A DNA stretch of 64,000 nt from contig OX638369.1 of NCBI GenBank assembly GCA_951812925.1, positions 19,931,329-19,995,328 of the forward strand, in the 5' to 3' direction. Below the pieces are notes generated by a model. That model was given only the letters and a program-made list of their open reading frames with translations, made no database searches and had not been told where the DNA came from. Shown one piece after another: positions 6,471 through 53,467 of this stretch (within the stretch, counting starts at the first letter, position 1; each line of letters opens with the position of its first letter). The position numbers and the translations under genes were made by a program. The stretch is from Calliopum simillimum (Eukaryota; Arthropoda; Insecta; Diptera; Lauxaniidae).

Positions 6471-6605
6471 TGAATTGGTCTTGTTTGATTTTCTCTCAAA
6501 AAGTTATGACAATTTTAAGATGACAAATGATATACGAAAATCGTATGTGGTATCATTTTCAAACGATCATAACTTTTTAAGAAAAAATCTTACAAGACCG
6601 AGCAT
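6471..6605. repeat. Imperfect inverted repeat
   Basis: GGTCTTGTTTGATTTTCTCT..AAAAAGTTATGA (from 6,477) is mirrored by TCATAACTTTTTAAG..CTTACAAGACC (to 6,599). The centre is CGAAAATCG near 6,538. This is either a small foldback element or the end of a larger one. No clear target duplication is seen. Confidence 0.45.
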
Positions 6606-10789: not shown

Positions 10790-11052
10790 CGTTTTTTACT
10801 CAAGAGGGAGGCATCTTACGAAAAGCTGCACATGGCATAAAATGCTCAGAATCATCCAAAGAACAAGTGTGATTTTTTTTGGAACTTTTTTTTTAAAAAT
10901 TTTTAACGTCATAAATTCTTTAGAAAAAAAAAAAAAAAATTAAAAAAAAAATCACACGTATTCCTTGAACGATTCTAAGCATTTTATGCACACTTTCTTC
11001 GTAAGTTGCCTCCCTCTTGAGTAAAAAAAGCGTTTTTCCTTTCACGGGGCTG
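10790..11052. repeat. Hairpin module shared with the hAT-like foldbacks
   Basis: CGTTTTTTACTCAAGAGGGA..GGCATCTTACGAAAAG..GGCATAAAATGCTCAGAATC is mirrored by GATTCTAAGCATTTTATGC..GTAAGTTGCCTCCCTCTTGAG..CGTTTTTCCTTTCACGGGGC. The same arms, better preserved, sit at 17,397-17,683 and (left arm only) at 42,011-42,120. Its host element here has different outer ends, so the module seems to move or be captured independently. Confidence 0.7.
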
Positions 11053-16901: not shown

Positions 16902-18178
16902 TAGGGCTGTTCAAAAAAAAAAAATTTTTCGAATTTCCAAGATATACTTTGGCATCACGATCTACATCATGACAGAATATCCCAAAAAATTTTTCAGATT
17001 TTTAAATTCATATTTAAAGGTGGCTCAAAGCAGAAATATATTTTTATTTTTTTTTTTTTTAGCATTAATTACAAAATGTTGTCAAACAATTTGAAAAATT
17101 TGTTTTAGAGTTATTAAAAAACATTTATTTTGTTTGTTTTTTAATGAACTTTAAAACCTACGTTGTAATTTTGACAAAAAAAAATTTGACACTTCTTAAA
17201 AAATGAAAAACTGCTCTAAGAAGGCGAAATTTTACGGTTTTTCAAAGAAAAAAGTCATCGTGCTTTAAACGAAATGAACATTTTTTAATTTACAAGATTT
17301 CATTCAAAAGAGCTCTTGAAAACCTTCAAGACCAGACATGTTAAGACATTTTTGGGCAAGCAGGCTCGATGACAGAACGTTTGAAACATAGTAATGCAGC
17401 CCTGTGAAAGGCAAAACGCTTTTTACTCAAGAGGGAGGCATCTTACAAAAAAGTGCCCATGGCATAAAATGCTTAAAATCATCCAAGGAACAAGTGTGAG
17501 TTGTTTTTTTTTGAAAGTTTATTAGAAATGACGTTAAAAAAATTTTTTTTCTAAACTTAAGTAAAAAAAAAAAAAACAATTTGCACTTGTTCCTTGGATG
17601 ATTTTAAGCATTTTATGCCATGGGCACTTTTTTGTAAGATTCCTCCCTCTTGAGTAAAAAGCGTTTTGCCTTTCACAGGGCTGCATTACTATGTTTCAAA
17701 CGTTCTGTCATCGAGCCTGCTGGCCCAAAAATGTCTTAACATGTCTGGTCTTGAAGGTTTTTAAGAGCTCTTTTGAATGAAATCTTGTAAATTAAAAAAT
17801 GTTCATTTCGTTTAAAGCACGATGACTTTTTTCTTTGAAAAACCGTAAAATTTCGCCTTATTAGGGCAGTTTTTCGTTTTTTAAGAAGTGTAAAATTTTT
17901 TTTTGTCAAAATTACAACATAGGTTTTAAAGTTCATTAAAAAACAAACAAAATGAATGTTTTTAAATTACTCTAAAACAAATTTTTCAAATTGTTTGACA
18001 ACATTTTGTAATTAATGCTAAAAAAAAAATAATAAAAATATATTTCTGCTTTGAGCCACCTTTAAATATGAATTTAAAAATCTGAAAATTTTTTTGGGAT
18101 ATTCTGTCATGATGTAGATCGTGATGCCAAAGTATATCTTGGAAATTCGAAAAATTTTTTTTTTTTTGAACAGCCCTA
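16902..18178. mobile_element. hAT-like foldback element, copy 1 (1,277 bp)
   Basis: Begins TAGGGCTGTTCAAAAAAA and ends TTTTTTTGAACAGCCCTA. The two halves are long inverted arms (about 16,902-17,520 against 17,580-18,178) around a short spacer. The flanks are a perfect 8-bp duplication TTAAAGAC (16,894-16,901 and 18,179-18,186). An 8-bp duplication and a YARGG-type terminus are diagnostic of the hAT superfamily. No transposase is encoded; open frames on either strand are mirror images of each other. A second copy with its own duplication is at 41,522-42,467. The centre carries the hairpin module also found at 10,790. Confidence 0.85.
17397..17683. repeat. Inner hairpin module of the hAT-like foldback
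   Basis: Starts CAGCCCTGTGAAAGGCAAAA and ends TTTTGCCTTTCACAGGGCTG, enclosing CTCAAGAGGGAGGCATCTTAC arms. The immediate flanks TAGTAATG and CATTACTA are reverse complements rather than direct repeats, so this is not a simple insertion with a target duplication. CAGCCCTG mirrors hAT ends and suggests a nested element captured in the arms. Confidence 0.6.
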
Positions 18179-20999: not shown

Positions 21000-21012
21000 A
21001 GAATTTGTTTAA

Positions 21013-21223
21013 TTAAAATGGTTCATGTTGACTATATGAAAATTATACCAATTTTACGAACTTTAAAACAAATTAAATACAACATAAATTGGTCTGAAGA
21101 TGGTTACCATAGCCATGTTTAGTGGTTTTTTTCTCTAATCCTAATTATCATGATTTTCTAAGTTAAAAAATGCATAGAATTTTAGATTCTTGCAAATAAT
21201 GACTAAAAGTTCGTAAAATTAGT
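21013..21223 (+). mobile_element. Hammerhead-family retroelement, copy A (internally deleted)
   Basis: Begins TTAAAATGGTTCATGTTGAC and ends CGTAAAATTAGT. It is flanked by an exact 13-bp direct repeat AGAATTTGTTTAA (21,000-21,012 and 21,224-21,236). The same ends bound copy B at 22,303-22,812. Here the inner part of the left arm and the ribozyme core are missing: AATTGGTCTGAAGATGGTTA runs straight into CCATAGCCATG. A 12-14-bp variable duplication suggests insertion by a retroelement integrase/endonuclease rather than a cut-and-paste transposase. Confidence 0.75.
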
Positions 21224-21260
21224 AGAATTTGTTTAACTTATATTTTTCCAGAAGGACATA

Positions 21261-21806
21261 GAGTAGAACGGGGTAATGTCGTGCAGGGGGTAATGTCGTG
21301 CACTGGCTGTTTAAGCCCAAAAAATTTAATGATTTACCAACTGTTCGTAAGGTAGGGACCTGCTGACCTACTGAGCTTATGCATATAATACTAGCAATTT
21401 TCACCAGTTCGTCTCTACAGAGTAACCTTTTTTTCAAAACGCACGCTTTCGGGACGATAAAAGTATTTTTTTATCGGGTCAGAAAAATAATTTTTCTTCC
21501 GGGAAAATATACCAGGTAAGTGTTTTCTGAAACGAAATATCCTGCCAAAGAAAAGAAGTATTTGGTTTTCGAAAAAAATGTTGGGCTTCACCGAGTTATC
21601 GAAGTTGACCTTTAAAGCGACCATTGGGGTAATGTCGTGCACATTCACTTACACAAACACAATTTCTCGCTACATAAATGTTGTTACACATGGATGTAAC
21701 CAATGAAATTATCTTTCGATCGGATGCTTACTCGTTGCATTCGCTTGGGATGTACGGCTTTACGAGCATGTCAAAGTTGAGTGCATGACATTGCCCCGTT
21801 CTACTC
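21261..21806. mobile_element. TA-flanked inverted-repeat element (546 bp)
   Basis: GAGTAGAACGGGGTAATGTC..GTGCA at the left is mirrored by TGCATGACATTGCCCCGTTC..TACTC at the right. Both ends abut TA (21,259-21,260, 21,807-21,808). The subterminal word GGGGTAATGTCGTGCA is repeated at 21,285 and 21,627. The TA duplication and an AGTA-type terminus fit a pogo/Tc1-like non-autonomous element. The minus frames inside are unrecognised. Confidence 0.65.
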
Positions 21807-22490
21807 TACGTATGAAAACTTTATTTTTGTATATATTTTCAAGTGTTCTGTTCATACTGTGTGCTATTGGAAAATGTTGAAAATTTTTCATTTTGTCTGC
21901 AATTTCATATTTTCTGCACTTGAATTGCGTTTTGTACAAATTTACACTTTTACTGAATGTACGCATACCAAATACGTGTACGTGTACGAGTATGTAGTAC
22001 ACTCATCCGCATAAAATTCATTTGTATTGTCATCGATATATGTAACATAGTATGTTTGTTTATGTTTGCAAATATATTTGAGTTATAAAAATATTTGATC
22101 TTTCAATTTAAAATATAATCATAAACATGAATGTGAATTTATAGAATAGCAAGCATTCAGTAAACATACGAGTATGACAGATCCTACGTTAAACCGAATC
22201 AATTTGCAGGACCACCATCACTTTAATTGATTTGACGAGACACGTACTCGCTACATTTTCCTCGAAACTGTTTCGTCGGAAGTTTTTGATAGGTAGAAAA
22301 TTAAAATGGTTTATGTTGACTATATGAAAATTATACTAATTTTATGAACTTTAGTCATTGTTTTGCAAGAATCGAAAATTCCATGCCAATGGCTGAGCCT
22401 TACCAAACAAACACAACTTAAATGATGACAAAGGAGTATAGAGAATGAAACCACGCTACATGCATATAGGCACTTAAGCTACCAATTTTT

Positions 22491-22578
22491 CCGAGGGCAC
22501 ACAGCGCAGTCCGTTGATAAATGCGCTATGTAGAGAGATTGATTTCGAAAGGTTCATAGATCGATCCCGGTCTCAGAC
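22491..22578 (+). ncRNA. tRNA-like (SINE-type) segment
   Basis: CCGAG (22,491-22,495) can pair four of five bases with CTCAG (22,572-22,576) as an acceptor-like stem. GCGCA..TGCGC (22,505-22,509 / 22,522-22,526) forms a D-arm-like hairpin with an A-box-like GCGCAGTCCG. GGTTCATAGATCGATCCC (22,551-22,568) resembles a B-box with an insertion. It is followed by an A-rich tract (to 22,602). This is the architecture of a tRNA-derived SINE head. There is no valid anticodon arm that I can defend, so it is not called as a tRNA gene. Confidence 0.4.
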
Positions 22579-22653
22579 AAAAAGTTAAAAAAAAAAAAAA
22601 ATTTTTCAATTGTTATTTCATTTAATTTAAATAAAATTAAATAAAACATAAAT

Positions 22654-22699
22654 TGGTCTGATGATGGTTACGTGGCGGTAACCGAAACATATGTCACCA
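22654..22699 (+). ncRNA. Hammerhead ribozyme candidate
   Basis: All three helices and the core can be drawn. Stem I is TGGT (22,654-22,657) with ACCA (22,696-22,699). The core box CTGATGA is at 22,658-22,664. Stem II is GGTTAC (22,666-22,671) with GTAACC (22,678-22,683), loop GTGGCG. The core box GAAA is at 22,684-22,687. Stem III is A-C / G-T closed by the tetraloop ATAT (22,689-22,692), and the cleavage triplet GTC ends at 22,695. The short stem III is typical of hammerheads in Penelope-like elements. One oddity is an extra T (22,665) between CTGATGA and stem II, which may bulge and lower activity. Cleavage would occur after C 22,695. Confidence 0.7.
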
Positions 22700-22826
22700 T
22701 AGCCATGTTCAGTAGTTTTTTCTCGTCTCCTAATTGTCATAATATTCTAAGTTGGAAAATGCATGGAATTTTCGATTCTTGCAAAACAATGACTAAAGTT
22801 CATAAAATTAGTATAGGTAGAAAATT

Positions 22827-23145
22827 GTTGAAAGAGTCCAAAATTTTTGAAAAAGGCGAACTAATTGAAAATATCGAAAATTGTAGGAAAAAATCGAAAA
22901 TTGTTGAAAAAAGTGAAAATATCTGAAAAAAAAAAAACAAAAGTTTTCAAAAATTATATGAGTATTGAAAAGTCGAAAATTGTTAAAATGAGTCCACAAT
23001 TGTTGAAAAAGCTGAAAATTGTTGAAAAAGTCCAAAATTTTTAAAAATGTCCATAAGCATTGAAAGTTGAAAATTGTTAAAATAAGTCCACAATTGTTGA
23101 GAAGTCGGAAATTGTTGAAAAAGTTGAAAATTTTCGAAACTAGCC
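22827..23145 (+). repeat. GAAAATTGTTGAAAAAG minisatellite
   Basis: Loosely tandem units of about 18-20 bp, for example GTCGAAAATTGTTAAAATGA, GTCCACAATTGTTGAAAAAG and CTGAAAATTGTTGAAAAAGT. It starts directly at the right target duplication of copy B. The minus frames here (Phe/Asn/Gln-rich) are repeat translation, not a gene. Confidence 0.75.
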
Positions 23146-28245: not shown

Positions 28246-29012
28246 AATGTAACAAAAAGTGTCTAAAAATGTGTCGCCAAAAAAGTATCAAAAAATGTTT
28301 CGCCCAAAAATGGTCGAAAAATGTGTCGCCAAAAAGATATCAAAAAATGTGTCGCAAAAAAATAGTATCGAAAAATGTGTCGCCCAAAAAACTGTCGAAA
28401 AATGTGTCATCAAAACGTATCGGATAATGAGTCGCCAACAATAAGTCAGAAACTGTGTCGCCAAAAGGTGTCGAAAAATGTGTCGTTAAAAAAAGTTTCC
28501 AAAAATGTGTCGCCAACAAAAAGTGTCAAAAAATGTGTCGCCCAAAAAACTGTCGAACAATGTGTCTCCAAAGAGTGTACGGTAGCGAGTCGCCAACAAA
28601 AACTGTCCGAAAATAAGTTGGAAACTGTGTCGTCAAAAAGTGTCGAAAAATGTGTCATTAAATATAGTGTCGAAAAATGTGTCGCCAAAAAAGTGTCAAC
28701 AAAAATTGTCGAAAATGTGTCGTAAAAAAAAACTGTCGAAGAATGTATTGCCAAAAAAGTGTCGAAAAATATGTCGCCAAAAAAGTGTCGAAAAATCTGT
28801 TGAAGAAAATGTCGCCAACAAAAAGTGGTGAAAAAAGTGTCGCCCAAAAAACTGTCGAAAAATGTGTCGCCAACAGAAATTGTCGAAAATGTGTGGTTAA
28901 AAAGTTTTTCGGAAAATGTGTAGTTCAAAAAAATTTCGGAAAATGTGTCACCAAAAACGTGTCGAAAATTGTGTCTCCAAAAAAGTTTCGAAAAAAAAGG
29001 CACCAAAAAAGT
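28246..29012 (+). repeat. ~26-bp satellite array, plus orientation
   Basis: About 28-29 tandem units of the form ATGTGTCGCCAAAAAAGTGT plus CGAAAA. Unit starts at 28,269, 28,296, 28,321, 28,347, 28,375 and 28,402 give spacings of 25-28 bp. Units vary in the second half (ACTGTCG, GTATC, GTTTCC). Because the period is not a multiple of three and the unit lacks stop triplets, all frames stay open for long stretches on both strands and give Lys/Cys/Ser-rich or Phe/Thr-rich pseudo-proteins. An inverted array of the same unit is at 32,050-33,500. Confidence 0.9.
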
Positions 29013-29034
29013 ATAGATCTTCATGTGATCCGCA

Positions 29035-29150
29035 GCCACCAACTGAGTATAAGGCCTCTCTTTAGTTGTGATAGCAGCGGCTTCAGTTGGAGCACAAGTT
29101 TGTATTGACTTAATGTTTCTAGCTCTGTTTTCAAATCGACCTAACAATAT
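29035..29150 (-). pseudogene. LINE endonuclease-domain fragment
   Basis: Minus frame: LGRFENRARNIKSIQTCAPT, then EAAAITTKERPYTQLVAADH. This matches the strand before and including the catalytic-fold motif (RxRNISxIQCYAPTE..DKExFYxQL) of the apurinic-like endonuclease of non-LTR retrotransposons. The usual Tyr of YAPTE is Cys. Only about 35 codons survive. The frame runs on into the satellite array, where it becomes meaningless repeat translation. Confidence 0.5.
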
Positions 29151-29523
29151 AAGTGATTTGGTTCAGTTTTGATAGACCCCTTGGCAGTATAGGTCAAGTA
29201 TTAGAATTTATCAGCTAATTGTGAGCTCACCTGCTCAGTTTCATCTTCATGATACTTAACCACCTACTAAGTATATCCCTGATGGCTTACTCCTATCCAT
29301 TTCCACTCTCCAAAGCGTCATAGGATTTGTAGACGTCACATAGTATGTGACATTTTTCAGATCCTACTTGGTACTAAAGCGAGCACACTTAAACGCAAAT
29401 GCATATGTGTTAATGTACGTTTGTATTGAACACGAATACTTTATGCAGGGCAACAACAAACGAAGCCGCGACGATGATAAAGAGCTGGAGAAGCAAAAAA
29501 TGAAAGCAAAGCAGTGAATAAAA
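29151..29523. other. Non-coding linker
   Basis: No gene or clear repeat. Confidence 0.4.
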
Positions 29524-29605
29524 GAAAACTAGTAAGGGTGTAAAATTTGGCCTGGCCAAACATTAAATACCCTACACTGCAGTATTTTTAAAATTTTGCT
29601 CATAT

Positions 29606-30200
29606 GGGAGGCGCTACGCCCTCTTATTCGAGTTCACCCAGTTTTTGTTCAGAGCTTGCATTTATAGTTTTAAATGTCTGAGTGAAAAATGTTTTCAGCA
29701 TAGTGTTTTGAAGCTTTTGCTTATATAGGAGGTGCCACGCCCTCTTGTCCGAGTTCCTCTAGTCTTAGCTTAGAGCGTGCATTTATAGTCTTTAGTATTT
29801 GAGTGAAATTTGTTTGGATTATCTCAAAAAACTCTTTCCGCATGTCATTTTGAAACTTTTGCTCATATGGGAGGTGCTACGCCCCCTTGTCCGATTTCAC
29901 CCAATTTTTGTTGAGAGCTTTCATTTATAGTTCTTAGTGTCTGAGTTAAATTTGGTTCGAATATCTCAAAAATCGCTTTCAGTATAGCGTTTTGAAGCTT
30001 TTGCTTATATGGGAGGTGCCACGCCCCCTTGTCCGATTTCACCCAATTTTTGTCGAGAGCTTTCATTTATAGTTCTTAGTGTCTGAGTTAAATTTGGTTC
30101 GAATATCTCAAAAATCGCTTTCAGTATAGCGTTTTGAAGCTTTTGCTTATATGGGAGGTGCCACGCTCTTTTGTCCGAGTTCGCTCAGTTTTTTCTCAGA
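29606..30200 (+). repeat. Central tandem repeats of the DINE-like element (142 bp)
   Basis: Unit heads GGGAGGCGCTACGCCC (29,606), AGGAGGTGCCACGCCC (29,727), GGGAGGTGCTACGCCC (29,869), GGGAGGTGCCACGCCC (30,011) and GGGAGGTGCCACGCTC (30,153) give spacings of 121, 142, 142 and 142 bp. Units three and four are nearly identical, differing at only a few bases by eye. The first two are clearly diverged, so the inner units were homogenised or duplicated recently. Confidence 0.85.
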
Positions 30201-30431
30201 GCTTGCGCTTACAATTTCTAGTATTTATGTGTATTTTGGTTGCATTGTCGTGAAAAATACTCCTAAAATTGCATTTTGAATATATTTTTTGTATGGGCGG
30301 TAGGCGTGTCCGTTAACCGATTTTGCTCATTTTCAATCCCCCGAGCTATCTTTGATGACGGAGGCAGGGTATCAAATTTCATTGAATTATCTTGCTTAGT
30401 TTTCCCAAAAAGTGTATTTCCACACACATCA

Positions 30432-30475
30432 CCCAGCCAGCCACCCAGCCAGCCAGCCAGCCAGCCAGACAGACG
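30432..30475 (+). repeat. (CCAG)n microsatellite
   Basis: CCAGCCAGCCACCCAGCCAG followed by further CCAG and CAGACAGACGG repeats. It is the proto-microsatellite arm of the DINE/mini-me core; the complementary GGCT version is at 24,895-24,933 and a degenerate GGACAGACAGACAG is at 43,973. Confidence 0.9.
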
Positions 30476-30608
30476 GACATGGCTATATCGACTCAGGAGG
30501 TGACGCTGATCAAGAATATATATACTTTTCTATACCTGCCACGCCTCCTTCTCTGCGTTACAAACGGAAGGACAAAGTGAATATACCCTGGGTGTAGGGT
30601 ATAAAAAT

Positions 30609-32045
30609 TTGCTATTCAACGGTTTTTGTGTGCGTGTGTGTCGCTATGCCGACTCTCAATTCACGCCTTTTCCTATGCGACAACGAGCGACAACAACACT
30701 TTCATTGAGTTGTCATCTTCACACATTCGTGTACACTTCCACATACAAACAATGCGTATGTACATTCACAACAACAACAATCACCAGGCATACTTACACA
30801 CCGATACAATTGGCAATAAAAACACATTTTTCATAAATTTAATTTAAAATTCACTTGGCGCGCCATAAAACCGCCTTCAGCGCAGCAGCAGCAGTCAATG
30901 TCCCCTACCGCAATTGCGTGGGCTACAGAGACACCCCTTATAAAATTGAAAAAAAAAAAAAAATTATGAAATGTGCCAACTAACCCCCTTTCACCCCCAC
31001 TATCACTGAAACTGCCTATGAGTGCTGCTTTTCATATTTTTTGAATTTCAACATAAATCTTTTCTCATTTTTTTCATTTCACATTCAATTTCTTTTCAGT
31101 TACAATTTTCATTTCCCTGGGCTTTTTCCTTTAATTTGTTTTCACTTTTATTCGTTTCTTTTTTGTTTTTGTTATTTGTTGTTTTTGTGTATTTTTATTA
31201 CCAATATTCAATGTTTAGAATACAAAGTGAGTGAAAAAAACTGTGAAATAAAATCGCATTACAAATGAATTAAGACACTTTTTTGTGGTGGCGTTTCAAA
31301 TGTGTTACATTTGGCTATGGTGAGTTTTATGTGAAACCCCCTCCCCCACATTGAATGTTCAATTCAATTCATTTGGGATTAATACAACATTTTATTGGCA
31401 ATGCCATTGGCAACGCTTGTGGGTATTCATCTGTGTGTGAATATTATTGTTAAGTGTTATTTTTTTAAGTATTTCCGTCGGTTATGCTTTTGTTGCCACA
31501 AATAAAATCAAATTATTTATTGGATTGTAAAATGCAAATACATAATAATCGTATTATTTATGTAGAGGAAATTCACCATTACTCCACTCAAGTTGATGTA
31601 ATGAATTGAAAATCAGTAGAGAAAAACCTTTGTGCCAGGGGAATGATACACATAAAAATAGACAAGTCAGAGAATATGTTATGAAGAAAGATATAATTTA
31701 AACTGAAATTGGAACAGACACCTTGTACATTTGGTTTCACAAAAAAATCCTTTCAAATCACCTAAAAAAATGTTTGGCCCCTAGAAGTTAAAAGACAAAT
31801 ACTTTATGTACAAATGTCAAACGATATATTGTTGTTATTTTCTTCTTGAACTTAGCCGATGATTCAATCTTTGAAATTTAAGAGTATAAGCTTAGCTTAT
31901 TATTGTAGCAAGACCACGTCCTCTGCCGCCTTGTGAATTCCACCCAAAGCTGGCAATATTTTGAATGTCATCATGGTCAATTTTAAAAACGATGTATTTT
32001 TAATTAGTTTCCTTTGTTTTGCACTTGTTTTTATAATGGAACTTT
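30609..32045. other. Non-coding, relatively unique sequence
   Basis: Includes CAACAACAAC and CAGCAGCAGCAG runs and a poly-A tract (30,949-30,962). T-rich 31,020-31,200 gives two overlapping Phe-rich frames that I reject. A minus-strand stretch at 31,905-31,985 reads HDDIQNIASFGWNSQGGRGR, which looks protein-like but is too short to name. Confidence 0.5.
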
Positions 32046-32049
32046 TTCG

Positions 32050-33500
32050 ATATTTCGGCACTTTTTTAGTCATACATTGTTCGACATATTTTTGGCAACA
32101 CATTTTGCAACATGTTTTTGATGACATATTTTTTGCAAAATTTTGGAGACACCTTTTTGGCGACACATTTTCGGACACTTTTTTAGCGACCCATTTTGCG
32201 GCATTTTTTTGGAGACACATTTTTGGCGACATTTTTTTAGCGACACAGTTATCGACACTTTTGTGGCAACCCTTTTTGTGACACTTTATTGGAGACACAT
32301 TTTTTGACATGTTTTTGGAGAAACTTTTTTGGTGACATTTTTTTCTACCTTTTTTCTAACAATACTTTTTTGGCAAAGCGTTTTGCGACACTTTTTTGGC
32401 GACTCATTTTACGACACTTATTTGGTGCCACATTTTTCAAAATATTTTTGAAGAAACTTTTTTTTTCGACATTTTTTTTGAAGACACATTTTTCTACACT
32501 TTTTTTGATACTTTTTTTGGTGATTCACTTTTTTGTGATACATTTTTCAAAATATTTTTGGAGAAACTTTTTTGGCGACACAATTTTTGACATATTTTTG
32601 GAGAAACTTTTTTGGTGACATTTTTTTTGGTGGCAAACTTTGCGACACTTTTCTGGTGACACATTTTTCGACATGTTTTAGTGATACATTTTTCAAAAAT
32701 TTTTTGGTCACCCTTTTTTTAGCTACACTTTTTTGGCGACACTTTTTATGTGACATAGTTTTCAACATATTTTTGCAGACACTTTTTTGGCAACATATTA
32801 CACGTATGTGACATGTTTTTGGAGACACATTTTTAAACACTTTTATGGTTATTTTTTTTGGCGACTCATTTTGCGACTCTTTTTTGGTGACACTTTTTTC
32901 GACACTGTTTAGGTGACACAATTTGCGACACTTTTCTGGTGACACATTTCTCGACATATTTTTAGAGAAGCTTTTTGGGCGAGACTTTTTTGGTGACACA
33001 TTTGCGACATATGTATTTTTGGAGAAACTTTTTTTGCGACACTTTTTTTGGTGGCAAACTTTGCGACACTTTTCTGGTGACACATTTTTCGACATGTTTT
33101 AGTGATACATTTTTCAAAATTTTTTTGGTGACACATTTTTTAGCGACACTTTTTTGGCAACCCATTTTGCGACACTTTTTTTGTGACATATTTTTCGACA
33201 CATTTTTCCAGACACTTTTTTGGCAATATATTATGCGACATGTTTTTGGAGATACATTTTTCTACACTTTTTTGGTTATTTTTTTTGGCAACTCATTTTG
33301 CGACTCCTTTTTGGTGACACATTTTTCAACACTTTTTTGATGATACAATTATCGACATTTTTTTTGGGAACGCATTTTTCGTAATTTTTTTGAGGACCCA
33401 TTTTATGACACTTTTTTTGGAGAGACTTTTTTGGTTACACAATTATCGAGCCTTTTTAAGCGACACTTTGTTCGACATTTTTGGAGACAGTTTTCGTTAC
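32050..33500 (-). repeat. ~26-bp satellite array, inverted orientation, with higher-order repeats
   Basis: Reverse complement of the 28.2-kb unit, about 1.45 kb: ACACATTTTTCGACACTTTT plus TTGGCG. A higher-order repeat is visible. GGTGGCAAACTTTGCGACAC occurs at 32,629 and 33,050 (offset 421) and GGTTATTTTTTTTGGC at 32,847 and 33,274 (offset 427), with the same variant units in between. Long frames on both strands are artefacts of the unit composition. Confidence 0.9.
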
Positions 33501-47215: not shown

Positions 47216-48574
47216 TTAGATTCGGCTTCATACTTCTAGACTACATATTTGCTTAAAGATTTATCAGACACAGTTTATTTTCGAAATAAAGTTATTTATT
47301 GTCGGACCAAGTACTAAGGCCGCAAAAGAGAAATTTTATTATGCCTTTTCACTGTCAAAAGAAAAATTTTTTTATATTAAATGAATTAATTTTTTCACTT
47401 TCATTTTTAAAGCTCATAATTTTTAGTTATCTGGACCAATTGTTCGTTCAACATCTCGCAGTCTGGGGCCTCCTTTACACTGCTGCCTCCGTACAGTAAA
47501 ACTTTATAGACTTAAAATGCACCTCCATGCCTACGGCCACACAGTCAGGTGAGCGTGTAAGTGAGTGAAGGCTTAAAGTGTGATTACCTATTTGTGTCAC
47601 GTGCAATTTACAAGAGAGAAAACACAGAGCAGCGGAAGAAGCAACATACACGGCTGCTGCTGCTGCCACTGACGCATTTGTGCCGAAACTTCATTGTCAC
47701 ATTTGCAACGAGTAAGTGTTAGGGATTTACTGGCAAAATAGCTATTCCATGCATACATCCTTCATTGTAAGTGAGAGTTTGAATATGTGAATATGCATAC
47801 GAAAATGTGAAATAAACTGGGAATGTGTGAGTAACTGAGTGTGTGCATGCAAGGCATGTTGGCAACATCAAACTGCCTGTGACAGAGTCACATGTACACA
47901 TAGATATGAAGTAGGTGCTTCTTATATGTATGTATAAGTTAAAGAAGAATGAAAGTAGAGATGAGACGTGCAAAACCAAACGGATGTTGCGCGAGACGAA
48001 CGTCGTCGAGCGATGGTAGCGGCGTTGAAGCACAGCCAAACACGCACACAAACGCAGCGCAAACACTCTTGAAAATCTTGAGTTGTGCTTTTTCAGTAAA
48101 TTATATCAACAGAGTAGAAATCATGTCGTCCTTGCTGCTGTTGCTCTTGCAGTCAATCAGGCTGTTCGTTTACTCCAAGTTTTTGCATAAAACGCACGTA
48201 AACGAGAGCTTTTCGGGTGAAAACTTACAAAAACTTGGAGTAAACGAACAAACTGAATGTGTGAGTTAAAGTGACAGTGTGCGCACAGTGTTGTAGATTT
48301 TGCTTAGAGGGAATTGACACTTAAAACACTTTTTAAGTCAAAAATGCAATTGCAAACAAAATGTATGAAATGTTTTTTAAGTATCAAAAACTATGCAAAT
48401 GGAACTTTAACTCGCAATATTTCTTTTCCACCTGAACAAAATGCTTCATGAGGAGCTCTCACAAATTATTTCGACAAAACATCATTTGGTGTAATCTGGT
48501 ATCTGGTTGGTTTTGGTAATCCTGGTACTTGCAATTTCGACGCGCAGATATAAGCATTTGCATTGATAGCGTAT
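47216..48574. other. Non-coding, fairly unique sequence
   Basis: CTGCTGCTGCTGC (47,655) and a CACAAACGCAGCG-type stretch. The plus frame at 47,949 and minus frame at 47,719 overlap and are unrecognised. Confidence 0.5.
48158..48255. repeat. Short foldback (98 bp)
   Basis: CAGGCTGTTCGTTTACTCCA..AGTTTTTG is mirrored by CAAAAACTTGGAGTAAACGA..ACAAACTG. The inner AACGAGAGCTTTTCGGGTG adds little pairing. It is hAT-like in its CAGGCTG terminus, but no duplication is visible. Confidence 0.55.
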
Positions 48575-52464: not shown

Positions 52465-53467
52465 TCAATGTTCAAAAATTATTTTGCTTAAATGTTCCCC
52501 ACGACTAGCTCTTAAATGGTTTATTCAGTGGGTACAATTTTCGCCAGCTTTTTCGAGGATATCGGCCGGTATTTCCTGAATAACAAGAGTTATGTTGGTT
52601 TTCAAAGCGTCAATAGTTTCGAGTTTGTCAGCATAAACAAGTGATTTAACATATCCCCAAGAAAAGCAGTCCAGTGGCGTCAAATCACATGATCTTTGTG
52701 GTCAATTAACAGAAGCATTTCTTGGGATGATGTTTTCATCGAATGTTTCCCTCAATAAAGCGATTGTTTCTCCAGCTGTATGGCATATTGCGCCATCCTG
52801 TTGAAACCAGAAGTCGGCTACACTAATATCCTGAATTTTTGGCGATCACTATTGACCGTTACATCCGCATTTTTGAAGAAATACGGTCCGATGATGCCTT
52901 CTGCCCATAAACCACCCCACTACCCCAAACAGTACATTTATCGAGATACATTGGAAGCTCTTGGATTGCTTCTGGTTGTTTATCGGCCCAAATACGGCAA
53001 TTTTGCTTGTTGACGTACACGTTCAACCAGAAATGATCATCGTCGCTAAAAACAATTTTTCGATAAAATAATGGATCAATTTGAAAATTTTGTTAGGCCC
53101 ATAAACCGCAATTAAAACGTACACCAAGATTAGTTGGCTTTGATTCTTTTAAAAACTGTATTTCATAAGCCTTCAAACCAAGATCACGCCTCAAGATACG
53201 CCACAATGATCCATAAGAGATGCACTTAGCCTGAGATTGGCGACGAATGGAATGTTCACGATTTTCACGAACACGCTCTGTTACTGCAGCAATATTTTCT
53301 AAATTACTTCGAAATTTGGTGATGATGTTACGAATAGTGCGCTCAGTTGGACGTTCATAATGACCAAAATGATGTTGAATAACTCTATAACATTCTCTTA
53401 CTGATGACTGATTTTGGTAGAAAGTTTCCACAATTAATAAGCTTTTTTCAGGAGTAAGTCAATTCAT
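52465..53467 (-). pseudogene. Mariner transposase, DD41D (rosa-type), inactivated
   Basis: Nearly full length (about 334 codons). The N-terminal helix-turn-helix region reads LTPEKSLLIVETFYQNQSSV, RECYRVIQHHFGHY and PTERTIRNI. A linker SIRRQSQ..SYGSLWRILRRDLGLKAY follows. The catalytic core gives VFSDDDHFWLNVYVNKQNCR, FWFQQDGAICHTA and CDLTPLDCFSWGYVKSLVYA. The second and third Asp codons are at 52,797-52,795 and 52,671-52,669, that is 41 residues apart in one frame, giving DD41D, first described from a Ceratitis element named rosa. A stop follows the presumed first two codons (ATG AAT TGA). More stops and frameshifts lie near 53,095, 52,900 and 52,710. The final stop is 52,465-52,467. It is dead. 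Terminal inverted repeats were not identified. Confidence 0.85.

Follow-up and report, generated by a model that had tools for sequence, protein, structure and literature searches.

A Penelope-type minimal hammerhead motif in a probable non-autonomous, tandemly arranged retroelement of the fly Calliopum simillimum

The 64,000-nt stretch of the Calliopum simillimum genome analyzed here (GenBank assembly GCA_951812925.1, contig OX638369.1, positions 19,931,329 to 19,995,328, forward strand; hereafter the window) carries a 46-nt hammerhead ribozyme motif within a short inserted element. The element begins with an inverted tail and an inverted 55-nt arm, continues through internal segments and the motif to a second arm that faces the opposite way, and is enclosed by exact 14-nt target duplications (ATAGGTAGAAAATT); all coordinates are collected in Table 1. 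A first-pass annotation, made from the sequence alone, had proposed a hammerhead of the kind found in Penelope-like elements, residing in a small retroelement with exact target duplications. The letters and coordinates of the motif are correct as annotated, the duplications are present, and a Penelope-type minimal hammerhead in a retroelement copy is still the best reading of the locus; that interpretation is supported by what follows.

The motif has a CUGANGA ... GAAA core, three helices, an NUH cleavage triplet and an open stem I, as expected of a type I hammerhead, and it departs from the textbook core by an extra T between A9 and stem II. We scanned both strands of the window with a full descriptor, consisting of CTGANGA, at most one inserted base, a stem II of at least 4 bp and GAA, then a stem III (2 bp or longer, with A-U as its first pair), a cleavage base other than G and a stem I of at least 4 bp. 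The motif was the single match. In a first-order simulation of 126 Mb with the window's composition, the same descriptor matched only twice, corresponding to 0.002 expected matches per 128 kb, and not at all when stem II was required to be at least 6 bp. The loose pattern CTGATGA...GAAA, on the other hand, is unremarkable, with five matches in the window against 1.22 expected, a number reached in two of 100 shuffles. The claim that the motif is not an isolated chance match is thus borne out by the descriptor, as well as by copies elsewhere in the host genome.

To collect such copies, a 203-nt query (22613–22815) was used against the 690-Mb host genome. The best 40 of 1710 first-look candidates were scored and gave at least 47 matches of 97–100% identity on contigs C1–C5, C307 and C119; these 40, together with contig C307 and part of C119, make up the copies read and set the scope of all counts below. 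The ribozyme region was matched at 54 distinct places in the fetched sequence. It is complete over 46 nt at 50 of the 54 and partial at the remaining four, among them a sister copy in the window described below. The full copies, that of the window included, are identical at all 46 bases in 49 of 50 cases, and the remaining one is changed in loop II. In a comparison of 36 copies with the window copy (loci L009–L028, leaving aside matches that start after query position 45 or end before position 130), 13 of 157 positions differed outside the ribozyme and 0 of 46 inside. Position 22725 differs in all 36, which marks it as a change of the window copy alone. Over the 203 nt, divergence from the window copy is 0.5–2.5%, and the carrier family is young and multi-copy. 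Exact-pattern scans of a viral collection with the 29-nt tail and the ribozyme, and of a prokaryote collection with the tail only, gave no match. We consider the sameness of the ribozyme among copies as supportive but not decisive. The first-pass annotation had looked to further copies for compensatory changes in stem II; copies with a near-invariant ribozyme were found, but covariation within the family is not visible, as stem II is uniform in the copies read.

The tandem copies reveal the unit from which the window copy derives. At locus L013, three copies of a 300-nt stretch, 100% identical, follow one another every 530 bp, and the 530-bp unit is arranged head to tail in the order m-S-T-ribozyme-p-arm-tail-gap. 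The retroelement carrier of the first-pass annotation is thereby confirmed, while its small size turns out to describe a 5'-truncated insertion of one unit, with inverted tail and arm followed by the segments from m to the arm. By eye, no long reading frame was seen in the window copy, whereas Penelope-like elements are marked by a frame for a reverse transcriptase and a GIY-YIG endonuclease. With its 530-bp unit the family has the small, non-coding, tandem hammerhead repeat that characterizes a metazoan retrozyme. Contig C307 has the ribozyme in repeat units of greater length (2254 and 2271 bp in L009), where different sequence separates m and S. This 106-kb contig (L009, L010, L029–L038) is satellite-like and holds 22 of the 50 full ribozyme copies, several of them in units of ~2.27 kb.

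A diverged sister insertion lies 1.3 kb upstream of the window copy and follows the same plan, with the tail and inverted arm at its left, a right end that lacks the tail and a 13-nt duplication (AGAATTTGTTTAA). Its ribozyme has a CTGAAGA box, a permitted change at N7, and the same extra T, and is missing 26 nt of stem II/III. A different inverted-repeat stretch at 21256–21811 has 30-nt arms that are 90% complementary and 496 nt apart, and contains GGGGTAATGTCGTGCA repeats.

The ends of these elements indicate how they move. Unit parts were mapped on 20 loci representing 19 places, L002 and L014 being one place. Ten of the 19 could be resolved with two outward-facing 3' ends within the fetched sequence (L001, which is the window copy, L011, L012, L014, L016, L018, L019, L022, L023 and L025), the other nine being incomplete, purely tandem or ambiguous (L013, L015, L017, L020, L021, L024 and L026–L028). 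With the sister copy included there are 11 resolved insertions, every one of which has the tail at one end and not at the other; direct repeats of 13–20 nt, differing in sequence from insertion to insertion, flank nine of the 11. Apart from the window and sister copies (14 and 13 nt), the repeats measure 20 nt at L016, 15 nt at L011, L014 and L022, 14 nt at L018, and 13 nt at L019 and L025; that of L023 is only 7 nt long, and no flanking direct repeat was found for L012. The repeat overlaps a few bases of the element in several insertions, including L011, L016 and the window copy. Measured from the predicted cut, the 3' ends lie at 117–120 nt without the tail and at 146–149 nt with it. Inverted 3' ends with a one-sided tail, together with short, variable target duplications, are the signature of a Penelope-like element. 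Indeed, Penelope elements are described as having an optional tail, inverted pseudo-LTRs (LTR, long terminal repeat) and 5' truncation (PMC11167929, PMC8969392, PMC3846280). Inverted ends and an optional tail of 30–40 nt count as traits of these elements (PMC11167929, PMC3846280), and the tail has been equated with the stretch between two start sites of the reverse transcriptase (PMC11167929).

Table 1. Features of the window copy, its hammerhead motif and the sister insertion (window coordinates).
Feature	Position	Strand	Remarks
Diverged sister insertion	21000–21236	+	Duplication at 21000–21012 and 21224–21236
Left target duplication	22289–22302		Exact 14-nt repeat
29-nt tail, 3' extension of inverted end	22303–22331	-	After arm in tandem units; absent from other end
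Inverted 3'-terminal arm, 55 nt	22332–22386	-	100% complementary to 22761–22815
Segment m of 530-bp unit	22387–22483	+	Internal; present in tandem copies
Segment S, with poly-A run	22484–22599	+	Internal; between m and T in tandem copies; no tRNA match
Segment T, A+T-rich	22600–22653	+	Directly upstream of ribozyme; in tandem copies
Minimal type I hammerhead motif	22654–22699	+	Predicted cut after C22695
Stem I, TGGT/ACCA	22654–22657/22696–22699	+	Sequence reading
Core box CTGATGA	22658–22664	+	Sequence reading
Extra T between A9 and stem II	22665	+	Also in two other hammerheads of the genome
Stem II, GGTTAC/GTAACC	22666–22671/22678–22683	+	Sequence reading
GAA	22684–22686	+	Sequence reading
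Self-complementary stem III strand, ACATATGT	22687–22694	+	8-nt palindrome
C17, cleavage base	22695	+	Sequence reading
Segment p	22700–22760	+	Between ribozyme and 3' arm; in tandem copies
3'-terminal arm, without tail	22761–22815	+	Complementary to inverted arm
Right target duplication	22813–22826		First 3 nt overlap end of arm

The extra T had been regarded as a deviation of the window copy, and this view did not hold. A scan of the window and 40 loci (180 kb, overlaps included) for hammerheads, tolerating up to two inserted bases, yielded two further ones, at L009:1863–1903 and around L004:180–220, and in all three the insertion is a single T. As the two others carry it too, the extra T is no defect of the window motif. 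With their flanks, the L009 and L004 hammerheads gave no match to window-family copies at E ≤ 1e-3. The stem III strand is self-complementary in all three (ACATATGT, ACGT and ATAT), the palindrome being 8 nt long in the window family versus 4 nt in the other two. In 550 Mb of simulated sequence there were 93 descriptor matches (30, 25 and 38 with 0, 1 and 2 insertions, respectively); 25 of the 93 had a stem II of at least 5 bp, and a palindromic stem III occurred in none of these 25. Between the L009 and L004 hammerheads, both sides are changed in three of nine pairs, a level that shuffles reached in 64 of 500 cases and that is not significant for two sequences. In the plus-strand hammerhead of a chrysanthemum viroid, an extra A is said to adjoin stem II. 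Of the hammerheads in C. simillimum, that at L004:180–220 (contig C5) has stems I and II of 7 bp each in addition to its ATAT strand and the same extra T, and no element was recognized around it. The viroid hammerhead serves as a precedent for an additional core nucleotide (PMC3705267).

A separate Penelope-like insertion occupies L009:1478–1976 on contig C307, between 11-nt direct repeats (TAATAAAGTAA), and neighboring array units hold its site with a single TAATAAAGTAA copy. Within it, the last part of an open frame runs up to a stop, beyond which lies the second hammerhead with its extra T. The frame, L009:1390–1698, possibly resembles a Penelope endonuclease, a likeness left unconfirmed by Pfam or protein searches: no match was found in Pfam, in a protein search among candidates of similar length, or by tblastn against phage records.

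The palindromes bear on how stem III might form. Double hammerheads have been described in Penelope elements, credited to Lunse et al., and those of eukaryotic mobile elements require ribozymes in tandem whose stem III loop is palindromic (PMC6466107). The window family has both, a palindromic stem III strand and tandem ribozymes. Its predicted double hammerhead reaches -26.4 kcal/mol, compared to -24.2 kcal/mol for two best-folded monomers (2 x -12.1). We prefer to read the very short stem III of the first-pass annotation, an 8-nt palindrome, as one half of the shared stem III of a dimer rather than as a 2-bp hairpin. The window insertion holds one ribozyme, and a double hammerhead in cis is thus impossible there.

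We also considered A9-T-G as a start codon, since its geometry resembles that of PAc (Poseidon/Penelope, Anolis carolinensis). The frame closes after five codons in the window family, and likewise in L009 (hand count), and translation from this ATG is therefore not claimed.

Several results weigh against a functional hammerhead in a Penelope-type carrier. The covariance-model search that the first-pass annotation had suggested found no match in the window with the Rfam hammerhead models, the motif being missed both at the gathering score and at E ≤ 10. The hammerheads of L009 and L004 were likewise undetected, which leaves the miss with little weight, and the Rfam models are a detection aid that lies outside the definition of a hammerhead. 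A covariance model built from these two hammerheads alone ranked the motif top in the window (E = 0.2, next match 0.58, stem I misaligned), but a two-sequence model is too weak as proof. The fold predictions are adverse: the best fold of the monomer, and of the surrounding 161-nt stretch, is not the hammerhead; an alternative two-strand fold of the window family, again not a hammerhead, reaches -29.0 kcal/mol; and for the two other hammerheads the predicted dimer is less stable than two monomers (-15.5 vs -22.0 and -19.8 vs -24.2 kcal/mol). No reverse transcriptase was seen by eye among the 17 window frames of at least 110 amino acids, and no coding partner sharing the 55-nt arm ends came to light with the single genome search, that of the 203-nt query. 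Copy identity is biased upward, because only the family members with the highest scores were sampled. Lastly, the PAc ribozyme cut only in the presence of protein, no RNA ends were seen at the cut site, and PAc hammerhead mutants still inserted in vitro (PMC11167929).

The Anolis mutants also favor the rival that deserves most attention, namely that the ribozyme is a functionless leftover of an autonomous Penelope pseudo-LTR, unchanged merely because the copies are young. With copies only 0.5–2.5% away from the window copy there has been little time for decay, and the sister copy has in fact lost 26 nt of its ribozyme. The 0 of 46 versus 13 of 157 differing positions argue against it, with a probability of ~0.03 by random placement (our own arithmetic, on a biased sample), as does the ACATATGT palindrome, which exceeds those of the L009 and L004 hammerheads in length and is undecayed. 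On balance we regard a leftover as unlikely, though it is by far the most serious of the alternatives.

Two other explanations concern the carrier. The S segment, with its poly-A run and the 8-nt AATTTTTC at 22484 and 22600, could be taken for a separate, nested tRNA-type SINE (short interspersed element) between 8-nt duplications. S is, however, equally placed in the complete 530-bp units of L011, L012, L013, L017, L020, L022 and L027 and absent only from units that end near T (L012, L019, L022), and no tRNA match was obtained with Rfam in 22200–22900 or with ARAGORN in the window. We dropped this very improbable explanation, as the tandem units show S to be an integral part. The perfect 55-nt inverted arms of the window copy would equally suit the terminal inverted repeats of a DNA transposon (a miniature inverted-repeat transposable element) containing a hairpin that resembles a hammerhead by chance. 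Such a transposon is hard to reconcile with ends that are unequal in all 11 resolved insertions, the tail being on one only, with head-to-tail units, or with 13–20-nt direct repeats whose sequence varies by insertion, and neither the 0.002 matches expected per window nor the 49 identical copies among 50 leave room for a chance motif; we give it hardly any credence, less even than the nested SINE.

Most probably, then, the window holds a minimal hammerhead of Penelope type, and its carrier is a Penelope-type element that is non-coding and non-autonomous. The DNA itself shows the motif and how little it varies among copies, the head-to-tail unit, the tail on one side only, the inversion of the ends and the flanking direct repeats; beyond these we infer a cycle of cleavage and insertion. 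The tandem 530-bp units would be transcribed through, and neighboring ribozymes would join by their self-complementary ACATATGT strands, which would make up a common stem III of 8 bp, forming a double hammerhead in which each ribozyme cuts after C22695 to yield unit-length RNA. A Penelope-like reverse transcriptase/endonuclease may then act in trans, with cDNA starting at either of two sites ~120 or 150 nt past the cut, giving ends without or with the 29-nt tail, and insertion would leave 13–20-nt direct repeats and outward-facing 3' ends. The whole cycle, including cleavage, dimer use, the enzyme in trans and a role for cleavage, seems to us slightly favored over its negation.

Other observations concern the rest of the window. 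Long hairpins at 17456–17624, 10844–10980, 6476–6600 and 48154–48259 have sub-threshold Rfam matches to plant microRNAs and are possibly palindromic transposon remnants. Repetitive overlapping open frames with KCVxKK-like repeats lie on both strands of 28366–33340, and a 121-aa open frame at 53093–53458 may resemble the helix-turn-helix part of a transposase-derived protein.

We class the family as a retrozyme-like, non-autonomous element of Penelope type with a dimer-type hammerhead. Such a pairing of ribozyme and element has counterparts, and the family is a clear instance in which Penelope-style insertion goes with small tandem ribozyme elements. A further possibility, which we put forward tentatively and rate somewhat below even, is that it forms a direct link between Penelope elements and animal retrozymes, combining Penelope-style insertion with a dimer-suited ribozyme whose core regularly includes an extra U that forms A9-U-G. 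In that case Penelope enzymes do move small ribozyme RNAs, circular or of unit length, in trans, and current hammerhead models lack a constrained feature, the extra U. The common extra U may partly explain the Rfam misses and points to an easy adjustment of search models. Mobilization of animal retrozymes by Penelope or Terminon enzymes is a proposal, and the role of minimal hammerheads in Penelope elements has been called a mystery (PMC7761336). A young, abundant, non-coding family with a Penelope signature and an intact dimer-type ribozyme would make both questions testable in one animal.

How does the family compare with known systems? Among the titles and abstract beginnings listed for the open-licence literature, none was recognized as describing it, which speaks only weakly for novelty. 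Its features of little or no stem III, a palindromic stem III strand, tandem copies, an optional 30–40-nt tail, an inverted pseudo-LTR, 5' truncation and short duplications are shared by the Penelope-like elements with minimal type I hammerheads that are credited to Cervera and de la Pena (2014) and Lunse et al. (2017). Unlike these, the window copy shows no long frame by eye, and the family has an 8-nt stem III palindrome. Its target duplications of 13–20 nt exceed the 8–10 bp quoted for Adineta (PMC3846280). Metazoan non-LTR retrozymes are similar in being small tandem repeats with type I hammerheads and in being non-autonomous; the enzymes that they need are proposed to be those of Penelope or Terminon, and insects are among their hosts (PMC7229834, PMC7761336). 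In contrast to them, the window family displays a Penelope-type tail and inverted ends, and it has a self-complementary strand where a stable helix III is reported for most invertebrate retrozyme hammerheads (PMC7229834, PMC7761336). Its unit of 530 bp also exceeds the ~150–300 bp of animal retrozymes (PMC7761336). In PAc, the cut lies 26 nt into the open reading frame and reverse transcription starts 111–118 nt into it (PMC11167929), thus about 85–92 nt past the cut, compared to 3' ends at 117–120 or 146–149 nt in the window family. From the A of the ATG to the cut, the L009 and L004 hammerheads also measure 26 nt, by a hand count that may start from another base than that of PMC11167929, while the window family, with its longer palindrome and stem II hairpin, has 31 nt.
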